DNA from: Candidatus Aerophobota bacterium
Lineage (GTDB): Bacteria; Aerophobota; Aerophobia; Aerophobales; B3-G15
DNA: 46,456 nucleotides
Assembly (NCBI GenBank): GCA_014859225.1
Contig: JACUUP010000001.1
Coordinates: forward strand, 1 to 46,456
Reading direction: 5' to 3'
The translations under genes were made by a program, and so were the position numbers. Below, piece by piece: positions 3,133-11,671 of this stretch (positions are counted from its first letter, which is position 1; each line of letters starts with the position of its first letter). The notes under the pieces were generated by a model. That model saw nothing but the letters and a program-made list of their open reading frames with translations. It was not told where the DNA came from and searched no databases.

Positions 3133-4330
3133 TCTTTGTATTTTGAGGCTATGGGGAGCAGTAGGGGTGTGTGGGCTTTTCATTTTTCTTCTGGCGCCTA
3201 CTCTTTTTGCTGAACAAAATGTCACACTTCACCTCAATTTAGGGGTAGCGTACTACCACCAGCAACAATACGAGAGTGCCGAGCAAGAACTGAAAAAAGC
3301 ACTGACAATTCTACCCGACAGTTTTGAGGCACATTACAACCTGCACCTCGTGTACCTTGCTCAGGGAAAGGTAGCTTTAGCAGAACATGAACTTAAAACC
3401 TGCCTCGCTTTAAATCCCGACTATCCCGAGCTTCACTTTCAACTCGGCAATGTATATTTCTACCAGAAAAAAATGGCTGAGGCTAAAGAAGAGTATCTAC
3501 AAGAGCTTGAGAAAAATCCTCACCACCTTTTTTCCCTGTACAACCTATCTAAACTATACGAGAGCCAAACAATCTGGGAGGAAGCAGAACGGTATTTGAA
3601 TAGAATAGAAAAAATCAATCCTGATTTTCCTGCAATATACGATGAGCTCGGTAAGCTACATTATCTGATGGCAAATACAGAGGAAGCCCTGGTAACTTTA
3701 AATAGAGCACTGGACAAGGGCTCAAATGATATCCACTCCTACATCTACCTTGCAAGAATTTATCAGGAAAAAGAAAACTACAAAGAGGCAAAAGGTGTAA
3801 TGCAAAAGGCAGTTGCAAAGTTCCCCGACAATTTTCACGTTCACATAGAAGCAGGATACCTGCACCTGAAGCTCAAAGAGTATTCTCTGGCAACCGAGTA
3901 CCTGCAAAAGGCTTTAGCCCTCACCCCGGGTGATGTAGCTACCATGTACTATCTTGGCTACATCTACACACAGCTTGAGCAAATAGATGATGCCATAGCC
4001 TGTTACGAATTCATTATAAGCACAAGGGAACAAGGGTATGAGGATACCTACTTTCTCCTTGGTAACCTCTACTACGGAAAAAATGACCTGGACAAAGCTG
4101 CCCATTTATATCTAAAAGAATTAGAGATGAATCCTCAGAATACGGATGCGCTCTTTAATCTTTCTCATACCTACTTTCAGCAGGGAAAGTTAGACGAGGC
4201 AGAAATGAGTTTACGCAAACTCCTTGAAATGAAACCAGACGATACTTCGGCTCATCTATTACTTGGTGATACGTACATGCAGAAGAATATGTACGACAAA
4301 GCAATTGAAGCATACGAGAAGGCTAAGTGA
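3110..4330 (+). CDS. Exported tetratricopeptide-repeat protein (11 TPRs)
   Basis: About 406 residues: a signal peptide with a hydrophobic core (VGVCGLFIFLLAP, probable cleavage near LFA-EQ), then eleven consecutive 34-residue TPR units filling the rest of the protein (starting near NVTLHLN, FEAHYN, PELHFQ, LFSLYN and so on). TPR arrays bind protein partners. The start is ATG 3110, because GGAGG at 3099-3103 is 6 bases upstream; the in-frame TTG at 3104 directly abuts it. The gene overlaps the end of tonB by 23 bases, so it belongs to the TonB operon. It may scaffold the TonB complex in the periplasm, as TPR proteins beside ExbB/ExbD/TonB do in other bacteria; that role is inference. Confidence 0.85.
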   Translation: MNFKKHPNLCILRLWGAVGVCGLFIFLLAPTLFAEQNVTLHLNLGVAYYHQQQYESAEQELKKALTILPDSFEAHYNLHLVYLAQGKVALAEHELKTCLALNPDYPELHFQLGNVYFYQKKMAEAKEEYLQELEKNPHHLFSLYNLSKLYESQTIWEEAERYLNRIEKINPDFPAIYDELGKLHYLMANTEEALVTLNRALDKGSNDIHSYIYLARIYQEKENYKEAKGVMQKAVAKFPDNFHVHIEAGYLHLKLKEYSLATEYLQKALALTPGDVATMYYLGYIYTQLEQIDDAIACYEFIISTREQGYEDTYFLLGNLYYGKNDLDKAAHLYLKELEMNPQNTDALFNLSHTYFQQGKLDEAEMSLRKLLEMKPDDTSAHLLLGDTYMQKNMYDKAIEAYEKAK

Positions 4331-4344
4331 TAAAAACAAAAAAA

Positions 4345-4405
4345 AGGGGGGGAGGCAGATTTATTTATTGAATGTCAAATACTCAAGACCTGACCCCAAA
4401 AAGAC
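4345..4405. repeat. Decayed repeat ends
   Basis: A poly-A/poly-G run followed by GCAGATTTATTTATTG resembles a worn copy of the arm GGGGACAGATTTATTTT seen at 11705 and 15764. Next to it lies AGACCTGACCCC at 4388-4399. I read this as debris of small palindromic elements between two convergent transcription units. No terminator hairpin was recognised here. Confidence 0.35.
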
Positions 4406-4444
4406 ATTTACTAATTAATCTCATAGGATGCACGTTAATAGGTA

Positions 4445-4804
4445 TTATCCAATATACCTCATCCTGTATTTGTCTGGCTCTACTACGCAAAAATACTTAT
4501 GTAATTGTGTTTCAACGTGTTCTCGGAGAACTCGCTTAAGCTCTTTATGTATCTCATTGATACTCATAGGTTTACCTCTCAGTAGAATTACACCTGAGGA
4601 TGAGATTTTCTCAATAAATACAAGAGCACCAAAATCCTTATCCCGTGTAATAAATATCCGATTCGTCTCTTTGGCTTTTTTTAATAGTTCACGGTCTGAT
4701 GCCCTGTGCATCCCAATTTCCCGAGCGGTAACAACATTGTGTCCCAATTTTATCAGATAATCAATTGTTACCTGATAGATATCCTGGTCAATTAAGAAAT
4801 GCAT
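4445..4804 (-). CDS. DUF5615-type PIN-like protein (putative toxin)
   Basis: A 119-residue protein of the DUF5615/Mut7-C-like PIN family. Visible marks are the N-terminal acidic FLIDQD, the central FITRDKDFG and the strand GVILLRGKPMS. These are the expected positions of the acidic residues of a PIN-type nuclease fold. Such proteins are normally paired with a DUF433 protein in a toxin-antitoxin-like unit, which is the arrangement here: its ATG overlaps the stop of the upstream DUF433 gene by one base (TAATG). An RNase toxin role is inferred from the fold. Confidence 0.82.
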   Translation of the reverse strand: MHFLIDQDIYQVTIDYLIKLGHNVVTAREIGMHRASDRELLKKAKETNRIFITRDKDFGALVFIEKISSSGVILLRGKPMSINEIHKELKRVLREHVETQLHKYFCVVEPDKYRMRYIG

Positions 4805-5049
4805 TATATCTTTTCAAGGTGAACTTCTTCTGAGCGCACAATATCAGTAGCATAGCTAACGCAAGCCTTAACATCATCGGTATCTAAATCGGGATAATAT
4901 TTAGTTACTATCTCCTCAAACGGAATACCTTCCTGCACTAATTCGAGCACATCCTCTACAGTAATCCGTGTACCGGCTATACAGGGTTTGCCAAAGTGAA
5001 TATTTGGGTCAATAACTATTCTTTCTGTATATTTTTCTTTTTTCGCCAT
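4804..5049 (-). CDS. DUF433 protein (putative antitoxin)
   Basis: An 81-residue DUF433 protein with the family signature DPNIHFGKPCIAGTRITVED followed by VLELVQEG and an acidic YYPDLDTDDVKACVSYA helix region, a winged-helix/HTH-like fold. The start is placed at ATG 5049, where AAGGAG sits about 7 bases upstream; an earlier in-frame start at 5070 would bury this site. It is the first gene of a two-gene unit with the DUF5615 protein and has a clear promoter at 5089-5116. It is probably the antitoxin and autorepressor, by analogy with similar pairs. Confidence 0.85.
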   Translation of the reverse strand: MAKKEKYTERIVIDPNIHFGKPCIAGTRITVEDVLELVQEGIPFEEIVTKYYPDLDTDDVKACVSYATDIVRSEEVHLEKI

Positions 5050-5088
5050 TCTTAAACTCCTTTTCAGCAAAACGCATTTACTTTGTTT

Positions 5089-5116
5089 ATTTTAATGCAT
5101 TGAAAAGCACTGTCAA
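5089..5116 (-). promoter_or_regulatory. Sigma70-type promoter for DUF433/DUF5615 pair
   Basis: On the minus strand TTGACA (5111-5116), a 16-base spacer, then TAAAAT (5089-5094). It lies about 40 bases upstream of the DUF433 start. Confidence 0.75.
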
Positions 5117-5162
5117 TTTGCACAAAAAGAAAATCAGTTGCTATTTTAAAAAAATCCCGCAC

Positions 5163-5855
5163 TTATTCATCTTTGTCCCTACGCTCCTGCACCTTTCTTT
5201 TTATCCTTTCCATCATGTCTTTCAACTTCTGTGTTTGTTTTCGCTCCTCTTCTGTTTTTGGTTCAAGCTCAGGTCTTGTTACTCTCCAGGTAACCTTTCT
5301 ACACACAGCATCTTCAGGATAAGCACCAGGGTCATAAAGAGTGTAGTCCCTGAATTTTGTGGACTTTTCCTGATAACAGGACCATACTGCCTGTCTTATA
5401 ACATCAGGATGCCCCTCATTTAGAAGATTGACGAGGGACACCTGTTTTCTTAACCTTTCCACTATCTCCGAAGGGATATTAAATAGATAAGGTGTTGGAG
5501 CCTTTGCTCCGATAATTTTCTTTCTCTCATCTATCCCATTTTTAAAAAGCTTCATAAGGGCATCACCTGTTGCATGGCCAGGAGATTCAGGTCCGGCAAG
5601 CACAAGATAACGGATATTGGGATTTGCCACCAGGTTACAGACCATCTTCTCTATCCCGATGTTCTCTGTTTGAAGAGTTCCAGATAAGGCGGCTCCCGCC
5701 TCAACTCCCACCCTTACCAGATTTTCAATGTCAGGGGGAATATTATCATAAGGATAGTTCAGAATAATCACCACTGCAACAGGTGATAGGTCATTTCCTC
5801 TCAGGTAATGCCCTTCTTCTGGGGGATAATCAGCCGGGGGTTGAATTTTTCGCAT
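5163..5855 (-). CDS. MtrA-like corrinoid-binding methyltransferase subunit, soluble
   Basis: A 230-residue homologue of subunit A of methanogen tetrahydromethanopterin S-methyltransferase. Family segments are visible in order: YPPEEGHYLRGNDLSPVAVV (near residues 10-29), GAALSGTLQTENIGIEKMV (54-72), NPNIRYLVLAGPESPGHATG (78-97) and KQVSLVNLLNE. His94 aligns with the His that coordinates the corrinoid cobalt in MtrA. The methanogen C-terminal membrane anchor is missing; a charged Lys/Arg/Glu tail replaces it, so the protein should be cytosolic. It is the last gene of the arsR-permease-thioredoxin-DGC operon. A methyl-transfer role with a methylated metalloid or thiol is inference. A relic of a second copy lies at 15830-15871. 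Confidence 0.82.
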   Translation of the reverse strand: MRKIQPPADYPPEEGHYLRGNDLSPVAVVIILNYPYDNIPPDIENLVRVGVEAGAALSGTLQTENIGIEKMVCNLVANPNIRYLVLAGPESPGHATGDALMKLFKNGIDERKKIIGAKAPTPYLFNIPSEIVERLRKQVSLVNLLNEGHPDVIRQAVWSCYQEKSTKFRDYTLYDPGAYPEDAVCRKVTWRVTRPELEPKTEEERKQTQKLKDMMERIKRKVQERRDKDE

Positions 5856-5874
5856 TAGCTCTCTCTTGTAGAAT

Positions 5875-6309
5875 TTATGCCTCTTTCAGAGCATCTACAA
5901 TTAAGTTTTTTGCCTTCTCCACATCTTCCTGAGAAATATACTCCATTAAGGGTTTTAGACTCTTTCCAATATCCTCATGAAGCGCTTTTTTCTTCATCCC
6001 TATATCTCTTGCCAGGACAAAACTTTTGGTTGGTTTAAATCCTGCCTCTTCCACCACTTTTCTTGAGCACTCACTGGGACATCCATCAACGGTAATTATT
6101 TTCTTTGCTGCCTTTGTCTTACCATGAACGGGAGGCACGCCTACCGGAAGTCCAGCCAGGCATCCTATTGCTACTTTATCAAGACCAACTTCTTTCACTG
6201 CTTCCATGCTGGCAAGCGCTGCAACAATTCCTGTATTAGAGAGTCCTCCAAAGCAGTTAAAAATGATATTTTCATGCGTTGGCATTCCTTCTTTCCATTC
6301 TGGCATCAT
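5875..6309 (-). CDS. DGC-domain putative zinc-binding protein
   Basis: About 144 residues with the DGC-domain pattern: an N-terminal NCFGGLSNTG (Cys followed by SNTG), an internal Cys (IGCLAGLP), and VDGCPSECSRK, the Asp-Gly-Cys motif that names the family, with two Cys positioned to bind metal. The biochemical role is unknown; members often sit with redox and metal or metalloid genes. AGGAGG precedes ATG 6309 and ATG 6306, so either could be used. The start overlaps the thioredoxin stop (ATGATGA), indicating coupling. It is 19 bases from the mtrA-like gene. The paralogous cassette at 15.8-17.5 kb lacks it. Confidence 0.8.
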   Translation of the reverse strand: MMPEWKEGMPTHENIIFNCFGGLSNTGIVAALASMEAVKEVGLDKVAIGCLAGLPVGVPPVHGKTKAAKKIITVDGCPSECSRKVVEEAGFKPTKSFVLARDIGMKKKALHEDIGKSLKPLMEYISQEDVEKAKNLIVDALKEA

Positions 6310-6545
6310 TCTTCCTCCTTTAACCATTTCTTTATTTTATCAGGTGAGGCAATCTCCCCTGAACATTTAATTTTGCCATCAATGGCAAGCGCCGGAGTCA
6401 TCATCACCCCGAACTTACTAATTTCTCGTACATCTTGCACCTTTTCAATCTCGGCTTCAATACCAAGCTCTTCAATTGCTTCCCTGGCATTTGCCTCTAA
6501 TTTCCTGCATTTTGCACAACCTATTCCAAGGACTTGGACTTTCAT
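6306..6545 (-). CDS. Small thioredoxin-like redox protein (CAKC)
   Basis: A 79-residue single thioredoxin-fold domain of the redox-active disulfide protein 2 type. It has a beta strand MKVQVLGIG, the active-site motif CAKC (residues 10-13), the cis-Pro loop MMTPAL and a final helix IKKWLKEEE. It probably reduces or relays disulfides for the neighbouring permease or DGC protein. It is 32 bases downstream of the permease. A near-identical paralogue is at 15858-16100. The pairing of this thioredoxin type with ArsP-like permeases is common. Confidence 0.88.
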   Translation of the reverse strand: MKVQVLGIGCAKCRKLEANAREAIEELGIEAEIEKVQDVREISKFGVMMTPALAIDGKIKCSGEIASPDKIKKWLKEEE

Positions 6546-6577
6546 ACTATCACCCTCCTTACGGTGTTTTTTTTATT

Positions 6578-7612
6578 TTAAAATACAAATGTTCCAAAAA
6601 TCATCCCGATAAAAGTGGACATAATAACAACTAAACCTATGTAAACAAGTGCCCTCTTTGTCCCCATAATACTTCTTATCACCAGCATATTAGGAAGGGA
6701 AAGTGCAGGCCCTGCAAGAAGAAGAGCCAGGGCAGGCCCTCGTCCCATACCCAAATCAAGAAAAGCTCTTAAGATGGGAACCTCGGTTAAGGTGGCAAAG
6801 TACATAAGAGCCCCGGCAACTGATGCTATGAAATTAGACCTTAGGGCATTTCCTCCCACCCAGGTCCTTATCACCTCAGGTGGTAAATACTCCCTGATTA
6901 TCCCGGCAGCAAACACTCCCACAAGAAGCCAGGGCAAAATAAGCCTGGTAAACTGCCAGGTTGCGGCAAGCCAGGATACAACTTCCTCTTTGCTGAACCA
7001 GAGCTTCAGCAGGATGACCAGGAAAACAAGTAACGCCACCACTATCCACCACCTCCCCCAGGCACCAAAAATGAGAATTGCTACGAGGTCGGCAAAAAAC
7101 AAAAGGGTTACAAGGGGATTTTTCCGGGAATCGTCAGTATCAGCTGTAAGGACAAACTCCTTTTTCTTCCCTTTCTCCCTTTTTTCCTGGAATAATTTTG
7201 CCATTATAAGTCCAATAATGATGGAAAAGCCAACTGCTCCAATTGCTCGTGCTATACCAAGCTCTATCCCTAAAAGACGTGCAGAGTAAATAATGGCAAG
7301 AAGGTTGATGGCAGGCCCTGAGTAGAGAAAAGTCGTGGCAGGGCCTATGCCTGCTCCCATAGTATATATCCCGGAGAAAAGGGGAAGAATCGTGCAGCTA
7401 CACACAGCAAGCACTGTTCCTGCAACCGATGCGATAGCGTAGGATAGGAATTTATTGGCAGATGGACCAAAATATTTTAAAATTACCTCCTTTTTGACCA
7501 TGCTGCTTATTGCCCCGGCTATGAAAAATGCAGGAACAAGACAGGTCAAAACATGAGCCGAGAGATACTCAAGTAGTGCCCTTGCCCCTGATAAGAAAAC
7601 GGATACGAACAT
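6578..7612 (-). CDS. ArsP-type permease (DUF318 family), copy 1
   Basis: A 344-residue polytopic membrane protein of the PF03773 permease family, which includes ArsP, an exporter of trivalent organoarsenicals. About eight hydrophobic helices in two related halves can be seen, joined by a charged loop near residues 148-165 (QEKREKGKKKEF). First half: CSCTILPLFSGIYTMGAGIG and FLYSGPAINLLA. Second half: ASVAGALMYFATLTEVPIL and ALLLAGPALSLPNML. The CSC in the first half is a plausible metalloid site. It is preceded by its own arsR and followed by thioredoxin. Substrate is not proven; an organoarsenical or other soft-metalloid substrate is inferred from the family and regulator. Confidence 0.88.
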   Translation of the reverse strand: MFVSVFLSGARALLEYLSAHVLTCLVPAFFIAGAISSMVKKEVILKYFGPSANKFLSYAIASVAGTVLAVCSCTILPLFSGIYTMGAGIGPATTFLYSGPAINLLAIIYSARLLGIELGIARAIGAVGFSIIIGLIMAKLFQEKREKGKKKEFVLTADTDDSRKNPLVTLLFFADLVAILIFGAWGRWWIVVALLVFLVILLKLWFSKEEVVSWLAATWQFTRLILPWLLVGVFAAGIIREYLPPEVIRTWVGGNALRSNFIASVAGALMYFATLTEVPILRAFLDLGMGRGPALALLLAGPALSLPNMLVIRSIMGTKRALVYIGLVVIMSTFIGMIFGTFVF

Positions 7613-7669
7613 TCATTTCTCCTTTTTATGATTCAATGGTCAGCTTAGCATATAGTGTGCAAAAAAATT

Positions 7670-7981
7670 TTAAGTTAACAGGGCCATTTTTTCCTTTACC
7701 AGTTTTTTTACAAAAGATAAAACAAGCTCAAGTATTTTAAACACATTGTCATCCTGCACCCGGTAGTAAACACTTACTCCCTCCTTTCTTGAGGAAAGTA
7801 TCCCGGCTCTTTTTAAAGCAGCAAGATGACGGGAGACATTGGATTGCTCTTCTCCTAAGTAAGGAAAAATCTCGCACACACATCTTTCCCCTTCCCTCAG
7901 GTAGTTAACAATTCTTATTCTTGTGGGATGCGAGAGTGCCTTCAAATACTCAGCCTGTGCCTCATACACCCTCTGGTTCAT
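7670..7981 (-). CDS. arsR: ArsR/SmtB-family repressor, copy 1
   Basis: A 103-residue winged-helix regulator. It shows LKALSHPTRIRIVNYL, the metal-sensing type motif CVCEIF (Cys34-x-Cys36, close to the ELCVCDL of ArsR), a recognition helix SNVSRHLAALKRAGIL and a wing SRKEGVSVYYRV. By my alignment it matches the second copy at 17222-17533 in 82 of 103 positions. It is the first gene of the permease operon and is expected to repress it until As(III), Sb(III) or a related ligand binds the CxC pair. GGAG lies just upstream of ATG 7981. The palindrome at 8001-8022 is its likely operator. Confidence 0.92.
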   Translation of the reverse strand: MNQRVYEAQAEYLKALSHPTRIRIVNYLREGERCVCEIFPYLGEEQSNVSRHLAALKRAGILSSRKEGVSVYYRVQDDNVFKILELVLSFVKKLVKEKMALLT

Positions 7982-8609: not shown

Positions 8610-8939
8610 ATGAGACTAAATGAAAAGGAGGAACTTGCACTGAGAAAATTTAGATCGACAATAGAAAAAGTATTAGGAGGTAATCTTGTAGAAGTAAAGT
8701 TGTTTGGCTCCAGAGTTCGTGGAGACGCTCGGAAGGACTCTGATATAGATGTACTAGTAATCATATCAAGTGGTGACTGGCGGATGCGGGATGTAATTTA
8801 TGACATAGCTACTGATGTACTTCTTGAAACTGAAGTTTGCATATCTCCAAAGGTTATCAACAGAAAGGAGTATGAGTATCTTTCCAATATAGGAGCTCCT
8901 TTTATAACAAATGTTATTCGAGAAGGAATTACAGTATGA
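8610..8939 (+). CDS. MNT-type nucleotidyltransferase (antitoxin of HEPN/MNT pair)
   Basis: A 109-residue minimal nucleotidyltransferase. The catalytic pattern GS-x10-DxD is intact in KLFGSRVRGDARKDSDID (about residues 30-47), followed by the strand VLVIIS. GGAGG lies about 9 bases before the ATG. In characterised HEPN/MNT pairs the MNT protein inactivates the HEPN RNase by AMPylating it; that is the likely role here. The stop overlaps the HEPN start by ATGA. Confidence 0.9.
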   Translation: MRLNEKEELALRKFRSTIEKVLGGNLVEVKLFGSRVRGDARKDSDIDVLVIISSGDWRMRDVIYDIATDVLLETEVCISPKVINRKEYEYLSNIGAPFITNVIREGITV

Positions 8940-9325
8940 ACGAAAGGGAGTGGGCTAATAAAGAATTGATACGGGCTAAAAAGGCTCTTCTTGCGGCAAA
9001 GACGCTATTAGAGAAAGATTTGTTTGAGGATTGTGTCTCCAGAGCTTATTACGCTGTCCTTCATGCTGCAAAGGCAGCTTTGACCTTATCTAAAATTGAA
9101 GTGGATACCCATAATGGAGTACGAAGAATGTTTGGCCTTCATCTTGTTAAAACGGGAAAAATAGAGAAAGAATTTGCGAAAATACTCACAAGAGAGCAAG
9201 AAGATAGAGAAATGGGAGACTATGAAGTTGGTGTCGAAATAGAAGAAGAAACAGCAAGACAAAGAGTTAATGAGGCTGAGAAATTTATACGAAGAATTGA
9301 ACAATACCTTCAGGTAACTAAGTAA
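8936..9325 (+). CDS. HEPN-domain protein (putative RNase toxin)
   Basis: A 129-residue all-helical HEPN protein. The signature Rx6H is visible as SRAYYAVLHAAKAAL (Arg about 38, His about 45), preceded by the usual WANKELIRAKKALLAAK helix. The RxYYAxxH form is typical of partners of MNT nucleotidyltransferases. It is predicted to be a metal-independent RNase toxin neutralised by the upstream MNT protein; the ATGA overlap indicates coupled translation. The pair is bracketed by 40-bp direct repeats, which suggests it was inserted as a unit. Confidence 0.88.
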   Translation: MNEREWANKELIRAKKALLAAKTLLEKDLFEDCVSRAYYAVLHAAKAALTLSKIEVDTHNGVRRMFGLHLVKTGKIEKEFAKILTREQEDREMGDYEVGVEIEEETARQRVNEAEKFIRRIEQYLQVTK

Positions 9326-9354
9326 ATATAAAACTTGCTCGAATTTTTAGCAAG

Positions 9355-9394
9355 AGGCTCTCTCATCTATAAAACAGGAGTGGTGGCTATTTTT
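9355..9394. repeat. 40-bp direct repeat, copy B
   Basis: Partner of 8058-8097. This copy covers the TAG stop (9387-9389) and the last Lys codons of the DUF6062-like gene, so the parental junction probably was DUF6062-like gene followed by the arsR operon. Confidence 0.85.
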
Positions 9395-10058
9395 TCTCTC
9401 CTGTCTCATCCTTGTTTCCCACTATCTTATCCACAACTTTTTTCCAGGAGGTAGATTCGCCACCGAATCCTTCATAAAAGAAGCGATAATCGTGTTTTCT
9501 AATAAACTCTTGGAGCTGAAAAAGATGTTCCTGTAAGGTGTGCAACTGACACTGCTTGAAGATTTCCTTTTCTTCCTCTCTGGCTAATCTTGAACAAATC
9601 ACCAGGAAATGTTGCATACAAAGTCCAAAACTTTGCTGATAGAGATTCTGAAAATCCTTTTCAGGAAAATTTTTTAAAAAGATACTGATATATCGCTCCT
9701 CAACCTCATCGGAAAACCTACAAACCGGACACCCTTTCCCAGGATAAGAAATTTCTGCTCCTTTTTCTATTTTCTCCCTGAGAATTGAGCAAATATCCTC
9801 GTAGATTATTGCTATACCCAGGGGCTTTCCCACCTCTTTGGCTAATGTGGCATGTCTTGGGCAGAACCCATACGATTTTCTCAATTTCTCCCTAACCCCG
9901 GGGTCATTGACCAGTTCATAAAAAAGAGTGTCCATAAAGGAGAGCTCAGACTTTTTAATAAGAAAACAAACAGGGCATGTGTTTTCTTTCATAGCCTCCA
10001 GAAGTTCAAAATAGCTGCTGTCATAAAAACTTTCGTTTCTCTGTTTTTCTTTTCCCAT
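9387..10058 (-). CDS. DUF6062-like Cys-rich protein behind a fluoride riboswitch
   Basis: A 223-residue soluble protein with two similar Cys/His modules: CPVC (near residue 28) with FCPRHA (near 66), and CPVC (near 111) with FGLCMQH (near 144). The spacing suggests two metal or disulfide sites from an internal duplication. It resembles the uncharacterised DUF6062 family. There is no signal peptide and no membrane helix, so it is unlikely to be a fluoride channel itself. It is preceded by its own promoter and a fluoride aptamer with terminator (10148-10276), about 90 bases upstream of the ATG; AAGG lies just before the ATG. The stop lies in a 40-bp direct repeat. A fluoride-induced role is inferred from the riboswitch; the biochemistry is unknown. 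Confidence 0.8.
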   Translation of the reverse strand: MGKEKQRNESFYDSSYFELLEAMKENTCPVCFLIKKSELSFMDTLFYELVNDPGVREKLRKSYGFCPRHATLAKEVGKPLGIAIIYEDICSILREKIEKGAEISYPGKGCPVCRFSDEVEERYISIFLKNFPEKDFQNLYQQSFGLCMQHFLVICSRLAREEEKEIFKQCQLHTLQEHLFQLQEFIRKHDYRFFYEGFGGESTSWKKVVDKIVGNKDETGEKK

Positions 10059-10147
10059 TTTGTGCCTTACAGGTTAAAAATCAAAAGTCTTTGGAAAAAT
10101 ATGTAATCTCCCCCAGAGCTCATGTAAACATAGCTTATGTTTTAAAT

Positions 10148-10178
10148 AAAAAACCCCTACTTTTAAAAAGTAGGGGTT
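10148..10178 (-). terminator. Rho-independent terminator of the fluoride riboswitch
   Basis: A 12-bp perfect stem (arms 10152-10163 and 10167-10178, AACCCCTACTTT with its complement) and a 3-base loop, followed on the minus strand by TTTTTTATTT. Its 5' arm overlaps the aptamer, as in switch-type expression platforms. Confidence 0.92.
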
Positions 10179-10227
10179 ATCATCCTGCACTAATTTGCAG
10201 GCAGTTAAGGGTGAACCCCATCACCTT
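10148..10227 (-). promoter_or_regulatory. Fluoride riboswitch (crcB motif) with expression platform
   Basis: Read on the minus strand, the conserved order of the fluoride aptamer is present: GGTGATGGGGTTCACC (a hairpin GGTGA/TCACC enclosing TGGGGT), then AACTGCCTGC with a stem closed by GTGCAGG, then ATGATAACCCCTACT. The late CCCC pairs back with the GGGG of the first loop to form the pseudoknot, and it is also the 5' arm of the terminator. This layout matches the known Bacillus cereus crcB riboswitch closely, so fluoride binding should prevent termination. The controlled gene is the DUF6062-like gene at 9387-10058, not crcB or a CLC-F antiporter. Confidence 0.92.
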
Positions 10228-10248
10228 GATTTATTGGGCTTGAGAGAC

Positions 10249-10276
10249 ATTCTAATTACTTTCAAGCTTAAGTCAA
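10249..10276 (-). promoter_or_regulatory. Promoter of the fluoride riboswitch transcript
   Basis: Minus strand TTGACT (10271-10276), 16 bases, TAGAAT (10249-10254). The start would be about 15-20 bases upstream of the aptamer, so the riboswitch has its own promoter separate from the cupin/permease operon. Confidence 0.72.
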
Positions 10277-10324: not shown

Positions 10325-10633
10325 TTATTCTGTTTTCACTATCTGCATACCCATTATCCTTACTCCACCCTCTGTCCTCATGGACAAAGTCGCCGGCTTC
10401 GTAATAAGGCACTGTCCTTCTCTGATGGTTATCTTTTCCTCGTCCACCGTCACCTCAGCTTCTCCCTCAACAACATAAAAAATGACATGAGAAGACATCT
10501 CACAAACTGGAATTTTGTCCCCGGGAGATAGTGCAATAATTAATGTCTTAAATTCCTTTGCCTTATGAAAAACATTCTTTTGCCTCTCTTCATACGGGTA
10601 TGCGGTCATTGTTTTGAGGTCAAATACCTGCAT
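10325..10633 (-). CDS. Small cupin-domain protein (permease operon)
   Basis: A 102-residue single cupin barrel. The core strands can be followed: LSPGDKIPVCEMSSHVIFYV, VVEGEAEVTVDEEKI, then IREGQCLITKPATLSM. Only one His is seen in the usual metal-binding cluster, so a catalytic metal site is doubtful; it may sense or bind a small ligand. It overlaps the end of the upstream permease gene by 14 bases, and AAGGAG lies ahead of the ATG, so it is the third gene of the two-permease operon. A second cupin of similar size sits next to the other arsR cassette (17697-18044). Confidence 0.85.
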   Translation of the reverse strand: MQVFDLKTMTAYPYEERQKNVFHKAKEFKTLIIALSPGDKIPVCEMSSHVIFYVVEGEAEVTVDEEKITIREGQCLITKPATLSMRTEGGVRIMGMQIVKTE

Positions 10634-11192
10634 TATTTTCTTCTCCTTTTTTAGATTTGTTCATTTTTTTATCGCCCCATTCAACTACTCGTTCTATAAA
10701 AAACCCCATGGCGGCCACCAGGATAATAGTTAGAATGAGTCTGGTAGCCATAAATCCGAATCCTAAAAATTGTAGCTCCACCATCTCCTGAGGAATCTTT
10801 ATGCACGCCCAGGCAGATAGAAAAATAACTATATTGGAGATACTTGCCCCTTTTTTAATGAGAGCCGAAGCTAAAGGAAACGCCACATAAAGAGGACCTG
10901 TGGGAAGCGCACCAAAAAGGATTGCCACAAAGATACCCTTTGTACCTGAAGTTTTGCCCAAATACTTTACCACAAGCTCCCTGGAGATAAAAACACTGAA
11001 AAGACCCATTAAAACCATTACTGCAGGAAGTATCATGATCATCTCAAGAAAAAAATCCCAGGCGGTAGTAGTTACTGGTCCTTTTTTCTCCGGGAAAACT
11101 ACAATAAGAATCGCTACGAAAATCACTATTGCTGCCAGCATAGCCCAATCTCTTACCAATTTTCCTGTTTGTTTTCCTTTTTTACCCCTCAT
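10620..11192 (-). CDS. Half-size ArsP-like permease subunit B
   Basis: A 190-residue membrane protein with about five hydrophobic segments. It contains the half-repeat pattern of PF03773 permeases: VVKYLGKTSGTKGIFVAILF, GALPTGPLYVAFPLASALIK and KIPQEMVELQFLGFGF. It matches one half of the 344-residue permeases at 6.6 and 16.1 kb in layout, so it probably pairs with the product of the gene upstream (11189-11671) to form a complete transporter. Start and upstream stop overlap as ATGA. N- and C-termini are basic and cytoplasmic. Substrate unknown; no arsR is present in this operon. Confidence 0.8.
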   Translation of the reverse strand: MRGKKGKQTGKLVRDWAMLAAIVIFVAILIVVFPEKKGPVTTTAWDFFLEMIMILPAVMVLMGLFSVFISRELVVKYLGKTSGTKGIFVAILFGALPTGPLYVAFPLASALIKKGASISNIVIFLSAWACIKIPQEMVELQFLGFGFMATRLILTIILVAAMGFFIERVVEWGDKKMNKSKKGEENNAGI

Positions 11193-11671
11193 AGAACCGC
11201 CCCCATAATAAGAGCAATAACAATGGCAATGACAAAACTTATTCCATTACGAAGAAAAGCCATTTTCTTTCCCAGTTCTTTTATCTCCAGAGGCAAGGTA
11301 ACTGTTCCAATCATGGTCAATGTGGTGATAAATGCTGCCACGGCAGAAATTGATGCCCCGCTTTTAAGAAGCGATGCAGCAAGGGGAAAGGAGACAAGAG
11401 CTGGAATGTGCAAAACTGCCCCTACCATGGCAATAATAACTATTCCAATCAGGCCGGATTGCTCACCTATAAATTGAGAAATTTTTTCCGGTGGGATAAA
11501 TCCTAAAAGAAGACCAATGAGGATGACAATAATAAGCACAACCGGCAAAATACGCAAAAGTGATTTTGCTGCTACTATAAGAGATTTTTTTGTTTTTTCT
11601 TTGTTTTTAAAAACCGCAAAGAAAAGACAACTAAGGGCAAAGACATTTATGAAAACAGCGGTTAGACTCAT
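11189..11671 (-). CDS. Half-size ArsP-like permease subunit A
   Basis: A 160-residue membrane protein with about four hydrophobic segments and the half-permease pattern IPPEKISQFIGEQSGLIGIV, GAVLHIPALVSFPLAASLLK and TTLTMIGTVTLPLEIKEL. The PALVSFPLAASLLKSGAS stretch parallels GPLYVAFPLASALIKKGAS in the next gene, showing that the two are diverged halves. GAGGTG is 6-7 bases upstream of the ATG. It is first in the operon permease A, permease B, cupin. A small palindromic element (11705-11788) lies directly upstream. Confidence 0.8.
   Translation of the reverse strand: MSLTAVFINVFALSCLFFAVFKNKEKTKKSLIVAAKSLLRILPVVLIIVILIGLLLGFIPPEKISQFIGEQSGLIGIVIIAMVGAVLHIPALVSFPLAASLLKSGASISAVAAFITTLTMIGTVTLPLEIKELGKKMAFLRNGISFVIAIVIALIMGAVL

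Follow-up and report, generated by a model that had tools for sequence, protein, structure and literature searches.

Fluoride riboswitches are known to control genes for the exporters CrcB/Fluc and CLC-F, Na+/H+ antiporters, pyrophosphatase, enolase, Usp, formate hydrogenlyase and MutS. In the paper originally describing the motif, the genes listed were mutS and those for ion transport and formate hydrogenlyase. Textbook targets of fluoride include enolase and pyrophosphatase (PMC11139923). DUF6062 is absent from the fluoride-riboswitch genes named in the literature searched, with the 2012 gene lists falling outside that search and possibly hiding members as hypothetical proteins. The word DUF6062 itself was found in none of the papers searched.

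The locus considered here lies in a 46,456-nucleotide stretch of DNA from a Candidatus Aerophobota bacterium (contig JACUUP010000001.1), the whole of which is referred to as the window. The locus shares with the described fluoride riboswitch (crcB motif, RF01734) the aptamer, the pseudoknot, the overlapping terminator and the ON-switch layout but differs in that the regulated gene encodes a DUF6062 protein. Several of the known fluoride-riboswitch genes share operons and switches with DUF6062 in relatives. Unlike these, DUF6062 is predicted to be soluble and bears no exporter or enzyme signature; both the CRCB or Voltage_CLC domain and the membrane segment of the CrcB/Fluc and CLC-F exporters are absent from the window protein.

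The fluoride riboswitch leader

A first-pass annotation of the window had placed a complete fluoride aptamer on the minus strand, followed by a terminator sharing one of its arms, and had called for scoring with the Rfam covariance model. This yielded a match to RF01734 of 50.4 bits, well above the gathering threshold of 34 (E 3.9e-11), covering model positions 1-64 in full and representing the sole match across the whole 1.8 Mb draft genome. Moreover, the arm CCCCTACT is indeed common to aptamer and terminator. The span originally given for the aptamer, 10148-10227, had to be redrawn, as it mixes the aptamer with the terminator (Table 1). The terminator comprises a 12-pair stem followed by TTTTATTT and folds with an MFE of -16.9 kcal/mol (z = -4.6), with none of 200 shuffles being equally stable. 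Transcriptional ON switches are typically laid out with aptamer and terminator overlapping in this manner.

The leader had also been assigned its own promoter. The sequence agrees with the consensus at 10 of 12 positions, but promoter-type matches of this quality are no scarcer in the region than chance allows (2 found versus 3.2 expected). As such, the sole argument supporting this promoter is its position directly 5' of the aptamer. Transcription from this site would start close to the 5' end of the aptamer.

The long-range pseudoknot joining the P1 loop to the 3' end is present in the window aptamer, where it reads GGGGT/ACCCC, as compared to GGAGT/ACTCC in the consensus. Conservation of these pairings was considered in a set of 12 aptamers, namely, 11 from riboswitch-DUF6062 loci and the pyrophosphatase leader of the sister genus. 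Pairing was complete (100%) across 108 pair cells covering P1 and the pseudoknot, and four of the nine pairs, two of them pseudoknot pairs, had changed on both sides. As control, the partners were slid by 1-3 columns. Now, pairing dropped to 48-57%. The riboswitch is under selection, with the pseudoknot being kept via compensatory change.

Table 1. Positions of the riboswitch leader, the DUF6062 gene and the conserved protein segments in the window.
Feature	Position	Strand	Basis or remark
Fluoride riboswitch aptamer (RF01734), complete	10164-10234	-	Rfam covariance model
Intrinsic terminator, AACCCCTACTTT-TTA-AAAGTAGGGGTT + TTTTATTT	10152-10178	-	expression platform
Sigma-70-like promoter, TTGACT-16-TAGAAT	10249-10276	-	10/12 consensus matches
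DUF6062 protein gene, 223 aa	9387-10058	-	PF19538
Module 1, CPVC-x34-CPRH	9852-9977	-	residues 28-69
Module 2, CPVC-x33-CMQH	9609-9731	-	residues 110-150; tandem copy of module 1
C-terminal conserved stretch, EFIRKHDYR...W	9444-9509	-	residues 184-205
Terminator-like hairpin, CTTGCTAAAAATTCGAGCAAG then TTTTATATTT	9334-9354	-	sequence reading; absent from the output of the terminator scan

The DUF6062 gene and its surroundings

The gene behind the switch, preceded by a TAAGG ribosome site, encodes a protein whose sole Pfam match is PF19538 (78.7 bits, cut-off 27), in agreement with its earlier description as DUF6062-like. As originally claimed, the switch is followed by this one same-strand gene only, since the next starts 1.4 kb further on, with two opposite-strand genes intervening. 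Together with the hairpin found behind the gene, this arrangement points to a one-gene transcript. In the window genome (91% complete), neither CRCB nor Voltage_CLC was matched, leaving DUF6062 as the sole detected riboswitch-controlled gene, with an exporter possibly being hidden in the approximately 9% of the genome that is missing.

Other genes in the vicinity include a nucleotidyltransferase and HEPN pair (8610-9325, plus strand), which converges on the DUF6062 gene and is of the MNT/HEPN toxin-antitoxin type. Immediately upstream of the switch lie a cupin gene and two half-size permeases of the ArsP type (10325-11671, minus strand). Further along the minus strand (5875-7981), a run comprising an ArsR regulator, a full-size ArsP permease, a small thioredoxin and a DGC-domain protein likely forms a metalloid or metal efflux operon.

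Recurrence of the riboswitch-DUF6062 pairing

The distribution of the pairing was addressed in a broad panel of 386 genomes, 16 being relatives from the same order and the remainder being spread over the domain. DUF6062 was found by Pfam in 22 of these and a riboswitch scoring over threshold in 70. In eight of the 22, namely, the window genome, G114, G197, G206, G210, G259, G367 and G387, DUF6062 follows a fluoride riboswitch at a distance of no more than a few genes, as compared to a chance expectation of about 0.018 (Poisson P about 3e-19); in a scan of 20 DUF6062 loci, 7 were so paired. At the level of whole genomes, a riboswitch occurs in 11 of 22 with DUF6062 versus 59 of 364 without (Fisher P 4e-4).

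Searching the riboswitch loci with a profile built from our own alignment brought in G028 and G169, while a small-phylum search, an approach which otherwise gave little, contributed the pairing in G453. A riboswitch lies upstream in each of the five DUF6062 genomes from the phylum of G028, G367 and G028 itself included, with DUF6062 having been picked by profile regardless of riboswitches. In the cultured Thermomicrobium roseum DSM 5159, DUF6062 (TRD_RS12225) lies 41 nt behind a riboswitch (L096:5787-5864; NC_011961.1) that contains a long insertion after P1 and scores 29 bits, below the threshold of 34. Since this switch retains complementary pseudoknot arms (GAGGC/GCCTC) along with a strong terminator that ends immediately ahead of a ribosome site, it appears that the Rfam model misses long-insertion variants. 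In total, 15 riboswitch-DUF6062 operons from about ten families were identified, such that the aptamer indeed precedes this family in many other genomes, as the first-pass annotation had asked. Its suggestion of an undescribed fluoride-tolerance function is the most economical reading of these operons.

At the same time, the pairing could be accidental or a relic, with the switch having once served another fluoride gene and a rearrangement having placed DUF6062 behind it. In G002, a sister genus in the same family as the window genome, the sole riboswitch (L013:5969-6043) lies directly before a gene for a membrane H+-pyrophosphatase (H_PPase; 3946-5919) and no DUF6062 is found in the genome, while the MNT/HEPN pair adjoining the window gene is a sign of local rearrangement. 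Yet the pairing is seen in about ten families and in differing gene orders. On the DUF6062 tree, with T. roseum scored as being without a switch, the riboswitch label most likely calls for about six changes, at least three of which are forced by well-supported branches, arguing against one inherited accident. A relic is thus highly improbable and, given the recurrence, descent from an H+-pyrophosphatase leader was rejected as a general account.

At more than half of the DUF6062 loci in the broad panel, no riboswitch lies nearby, even at a permissive threshold. Permissive scans of most switchless loci revealed a hidden riboswitch only in T. roseum. As such, the family would have other roles or be otherwise regulated at these sites. 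No fluoride riboswitch was found on three faecal 'phage' contigs encoding DUF6062, nor were relatives found in viral contigs. One apparent relative, L002 (Sneabacter), was discarded as spurious, the sequence being that of a DNA polymerase III delta'-like protein.

Genes behind fluoride riboswitches

Behind 90 riboswitches, the genes in first and second place, 125 in all, were scored against Pfam. Using simple longest-ORF gene calls, which render the counts approximate, DUF6062 was detected 9 times, CRCB 11, DUF190 10 and Dynamin_N 12 times, placing DUF6062 close to CRCB and DUF190, with the count for Dynamin_N being equally unexpected. The survey is validated by its recovery of known fluoride gene classes (Na_H_Exchanger, 21; NADHdh, 8; Usp, 6; Voltage_CLC, 4; MutS, 3).

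Dynamin-like GTPase genes were separately noted in 16 fluoride-riboswitch loci by profile search and in two more (L048, L059, L113, L116, L117, L119, L128, L129, L132, L135, L147, L159, L165, L169, L173, L175, L186 and L187), a frequency equal to that of CrcB; fluoride riboswitches and dynamin were not found joined in any paper searched. At two loci (L113:3394-4085 and L059:605-1308), two tandem DUF190 genes lie between the dynamin-like GTPase and CrcB genes.

Operon partners of DUF6062

Examination of the operons revealed that partner genes vary between lineages, such that no single partner explains DUF6062 function. The order riboswitch, DUF6062, CrcB is seen in G210, G114, G387 and G453, while CrcB is the last operon gene in G367 and G028, as might be expected were DUF6062 to serve the CrcB/Fluc fluoride channel, either as an accessory subunit or in its assembly. 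However, the window genome offers no CRCB or CLC match and the operons of G259, G206, G197 and T. roseum are devoid of CrcB in the stretch read, rendering such a role distinctly improbable.

A dynamin-like GTPase gene adjoins DUF6062 in G028, G367 and G482 and lies in the same operon in G197 and G485, with those of G482 and G485 being recognised by sequence only. Clusters of the MoxR-DUF58-transglutaminase type are likewise recurrent partners. MoxR and DUF58 share the DUF6062 operon in G259 and T. roseum, DUF58 and transglutaminase genes lie beside DUF6062 in G146, and the MoxR gene of G114, like that of G387, stands behind a fluoride riboswitch of its own. DUF6062 is, however, no known component of MoxR systems, none of which lies beside the window gene. 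The fluoride-riboswitch loci of these MoxR genes, with DUF6062 (G259, T. roseum) or alone (G114, G387), are L060, L096, L109 and L112; those checked further also carry DUF58 and a gene of the transglutaminase type.

Enolase is the direct neighbour of DUF6062 in G485 (riboswitch, dynamin, enolase, DUF6062), whereas in G273, with no switch, DUF6062 closes a run of pyruvate kinase, enolase and phosphofructokinase genes, with enolase being one gene away. MoxR and dynamin machines are as frequent partners of DUF6062 as is enolase. In G169, a Na+/H+ antiporter-like gene lies between the switch and DUF6062.

The DUF6062 protein

The two CPVC...CxxH modules of the first-pass annotation were recovered. 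Residues C28, C31, C66 and H69 of the first module and C110, C113, C147 and H150 of the second are invariant across 20 divergent sequences, all matching PF19538 and sharing 21-37% identity with the window protein. The spacing between ligand pairs is 31-35 residues, almost always 33 or 34. Comparison of the two modules by hhalign gave 97.6% (E 4.4e-12), as opposed to at most 0.76% for 20 column-shuffled controls; judged by these profiles, the protein repeats a CxxC-x33/34-CxxH unit in tandem. Three modules are found in T. roseum DUF6062 and four in G169 and in the second gene of G206. In the G028 protein, CARC replaces the second CxxH, and such exchange of Cys for His is typical of zinc sites. 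Most likely, the two Cys3His modules each hold one structural zinc ion.

Eight invariant Cys and His residues could also serve a metal buffer or thiol-redox protein countering fluoride-caused metal release or oxidative stress, given that fluoride perturbs divalent metals and may add oxidative stress (PMC11139923). Still, the fixed ligand spacing and the one Cys-for-His exchange better suit a structural site and the window protein presents no thioredoxin-like match, leaving a buffering or redox role quite unlikely.

With a top 19-residue Kyte-Doolittle mean of 1.04, the window protein contains no membrane segment and is presumably a soluble, helical protein of the cytosol. Single-sequence structure modelling returned a pLDDT of 35.6 and no usable fold. 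The best PDB match of the whole-protein profile was the zinc form of mycobacterial bS18 (PDB 5v93 chain r; CVFC-x33-CVQH), in which the ligands align and the spacing is that of DUF6062 module 2. This match is weak and not significant (E 0.048) and was lost with a module-only profile; moreover, DUF6062 differs from bS18 in containing two to four modules and a conserved FIRKxDYR tail. Although the match fits a zinc-type site, it offers only a hint of kinship.

The main rival to the adaptor or chaperone-like role favoured below also draws on bS18, namely, that DUF6062 is a zinc protein binding RNA or DNA, acting, for example, as a fluoride-stress regulator or as an accessory factor in translation or repair. 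In addition to the weak bS18 match, mutM is the next gene after DUF6062 in two genomes, and mutS is among the genes known to follow fluoride riboswitches. Given how the bS18 match falls short of significance and vanishes with the modules alone, and as neither a basic surface nor a known nucleic-acid domain was identified, nucleic-acid binding is considered unlikely.

In one family, a second small Cys-rich protein adjoins DUF6062 (L061:2852-3292, L062:3858-4295 and L063:2840-3277). According to the profile from our own alignment, it is a weak relative (E about 1e-5 to 1e-3); the L062 copy yielded no Pfam match.

Discussion

By comparison across genomes, both the regulation described here and the link of the family to fluoride appear well supported, and DUF6062 proteins very probably represent a so-far unnoticed part of bacterial fluoride coping. 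Drawing on the established fluoride riboswitch literature, the nascent leader would bind Mg-fluoride as fluoride levels in the cell rise, holding the pseudoknot and blocking the terminator, such that RNA polymerase would transcribe the DUF6062 gene. We infer that the gene is fluoride-induced in this organism and that its product binds zinc and takes part in tolerance.

As to what the protein does, it seems rather probable that DUF6062 is not an exporter but a fluoride-induced zinc-scaffold protein supporting remodelling machinery or fluoride-sensitive enzymes. It may act as an intracellular adaptor or chaperone-like partner that helps either remodelling machines (MoxR-type AAA ATPases, dynamin-like GTPases) or fluoride-sensitive Mg enzymes (enolase, pyrophosphatase) to function under fluoride, this adaptor role being the least certain of the points raised. 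A metal enzyme might be protected or repaired, as originally suggested. More tentatively, and as a possibility rather than an expectation, DUF6062 could define an exporter-independent class of fluoride tolerance, in which zinc-scaffolded adaptors act alongside either MoxR-type ATPases or dynamin-like GTPases and sometimes provide the sole riboswitch-controlled defence. If true, such adaptors would protect cells in which phosphoryl-transfer and Mg enzymes are being poisoned by fluoride.

Riboswitches directly show which genes cells want in the presence of a given toxin. The connection to fluoride thus gives a nameless family found in many little-studied lineages a testable function, with T. roseum TRD_RS12225 offering a named test case in a cultured organism. 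Beyond the model phyla, the catalogue of fluoride genes is shown to have gaps, and DUF6062 suggests that export is complemented by a second line of defence.
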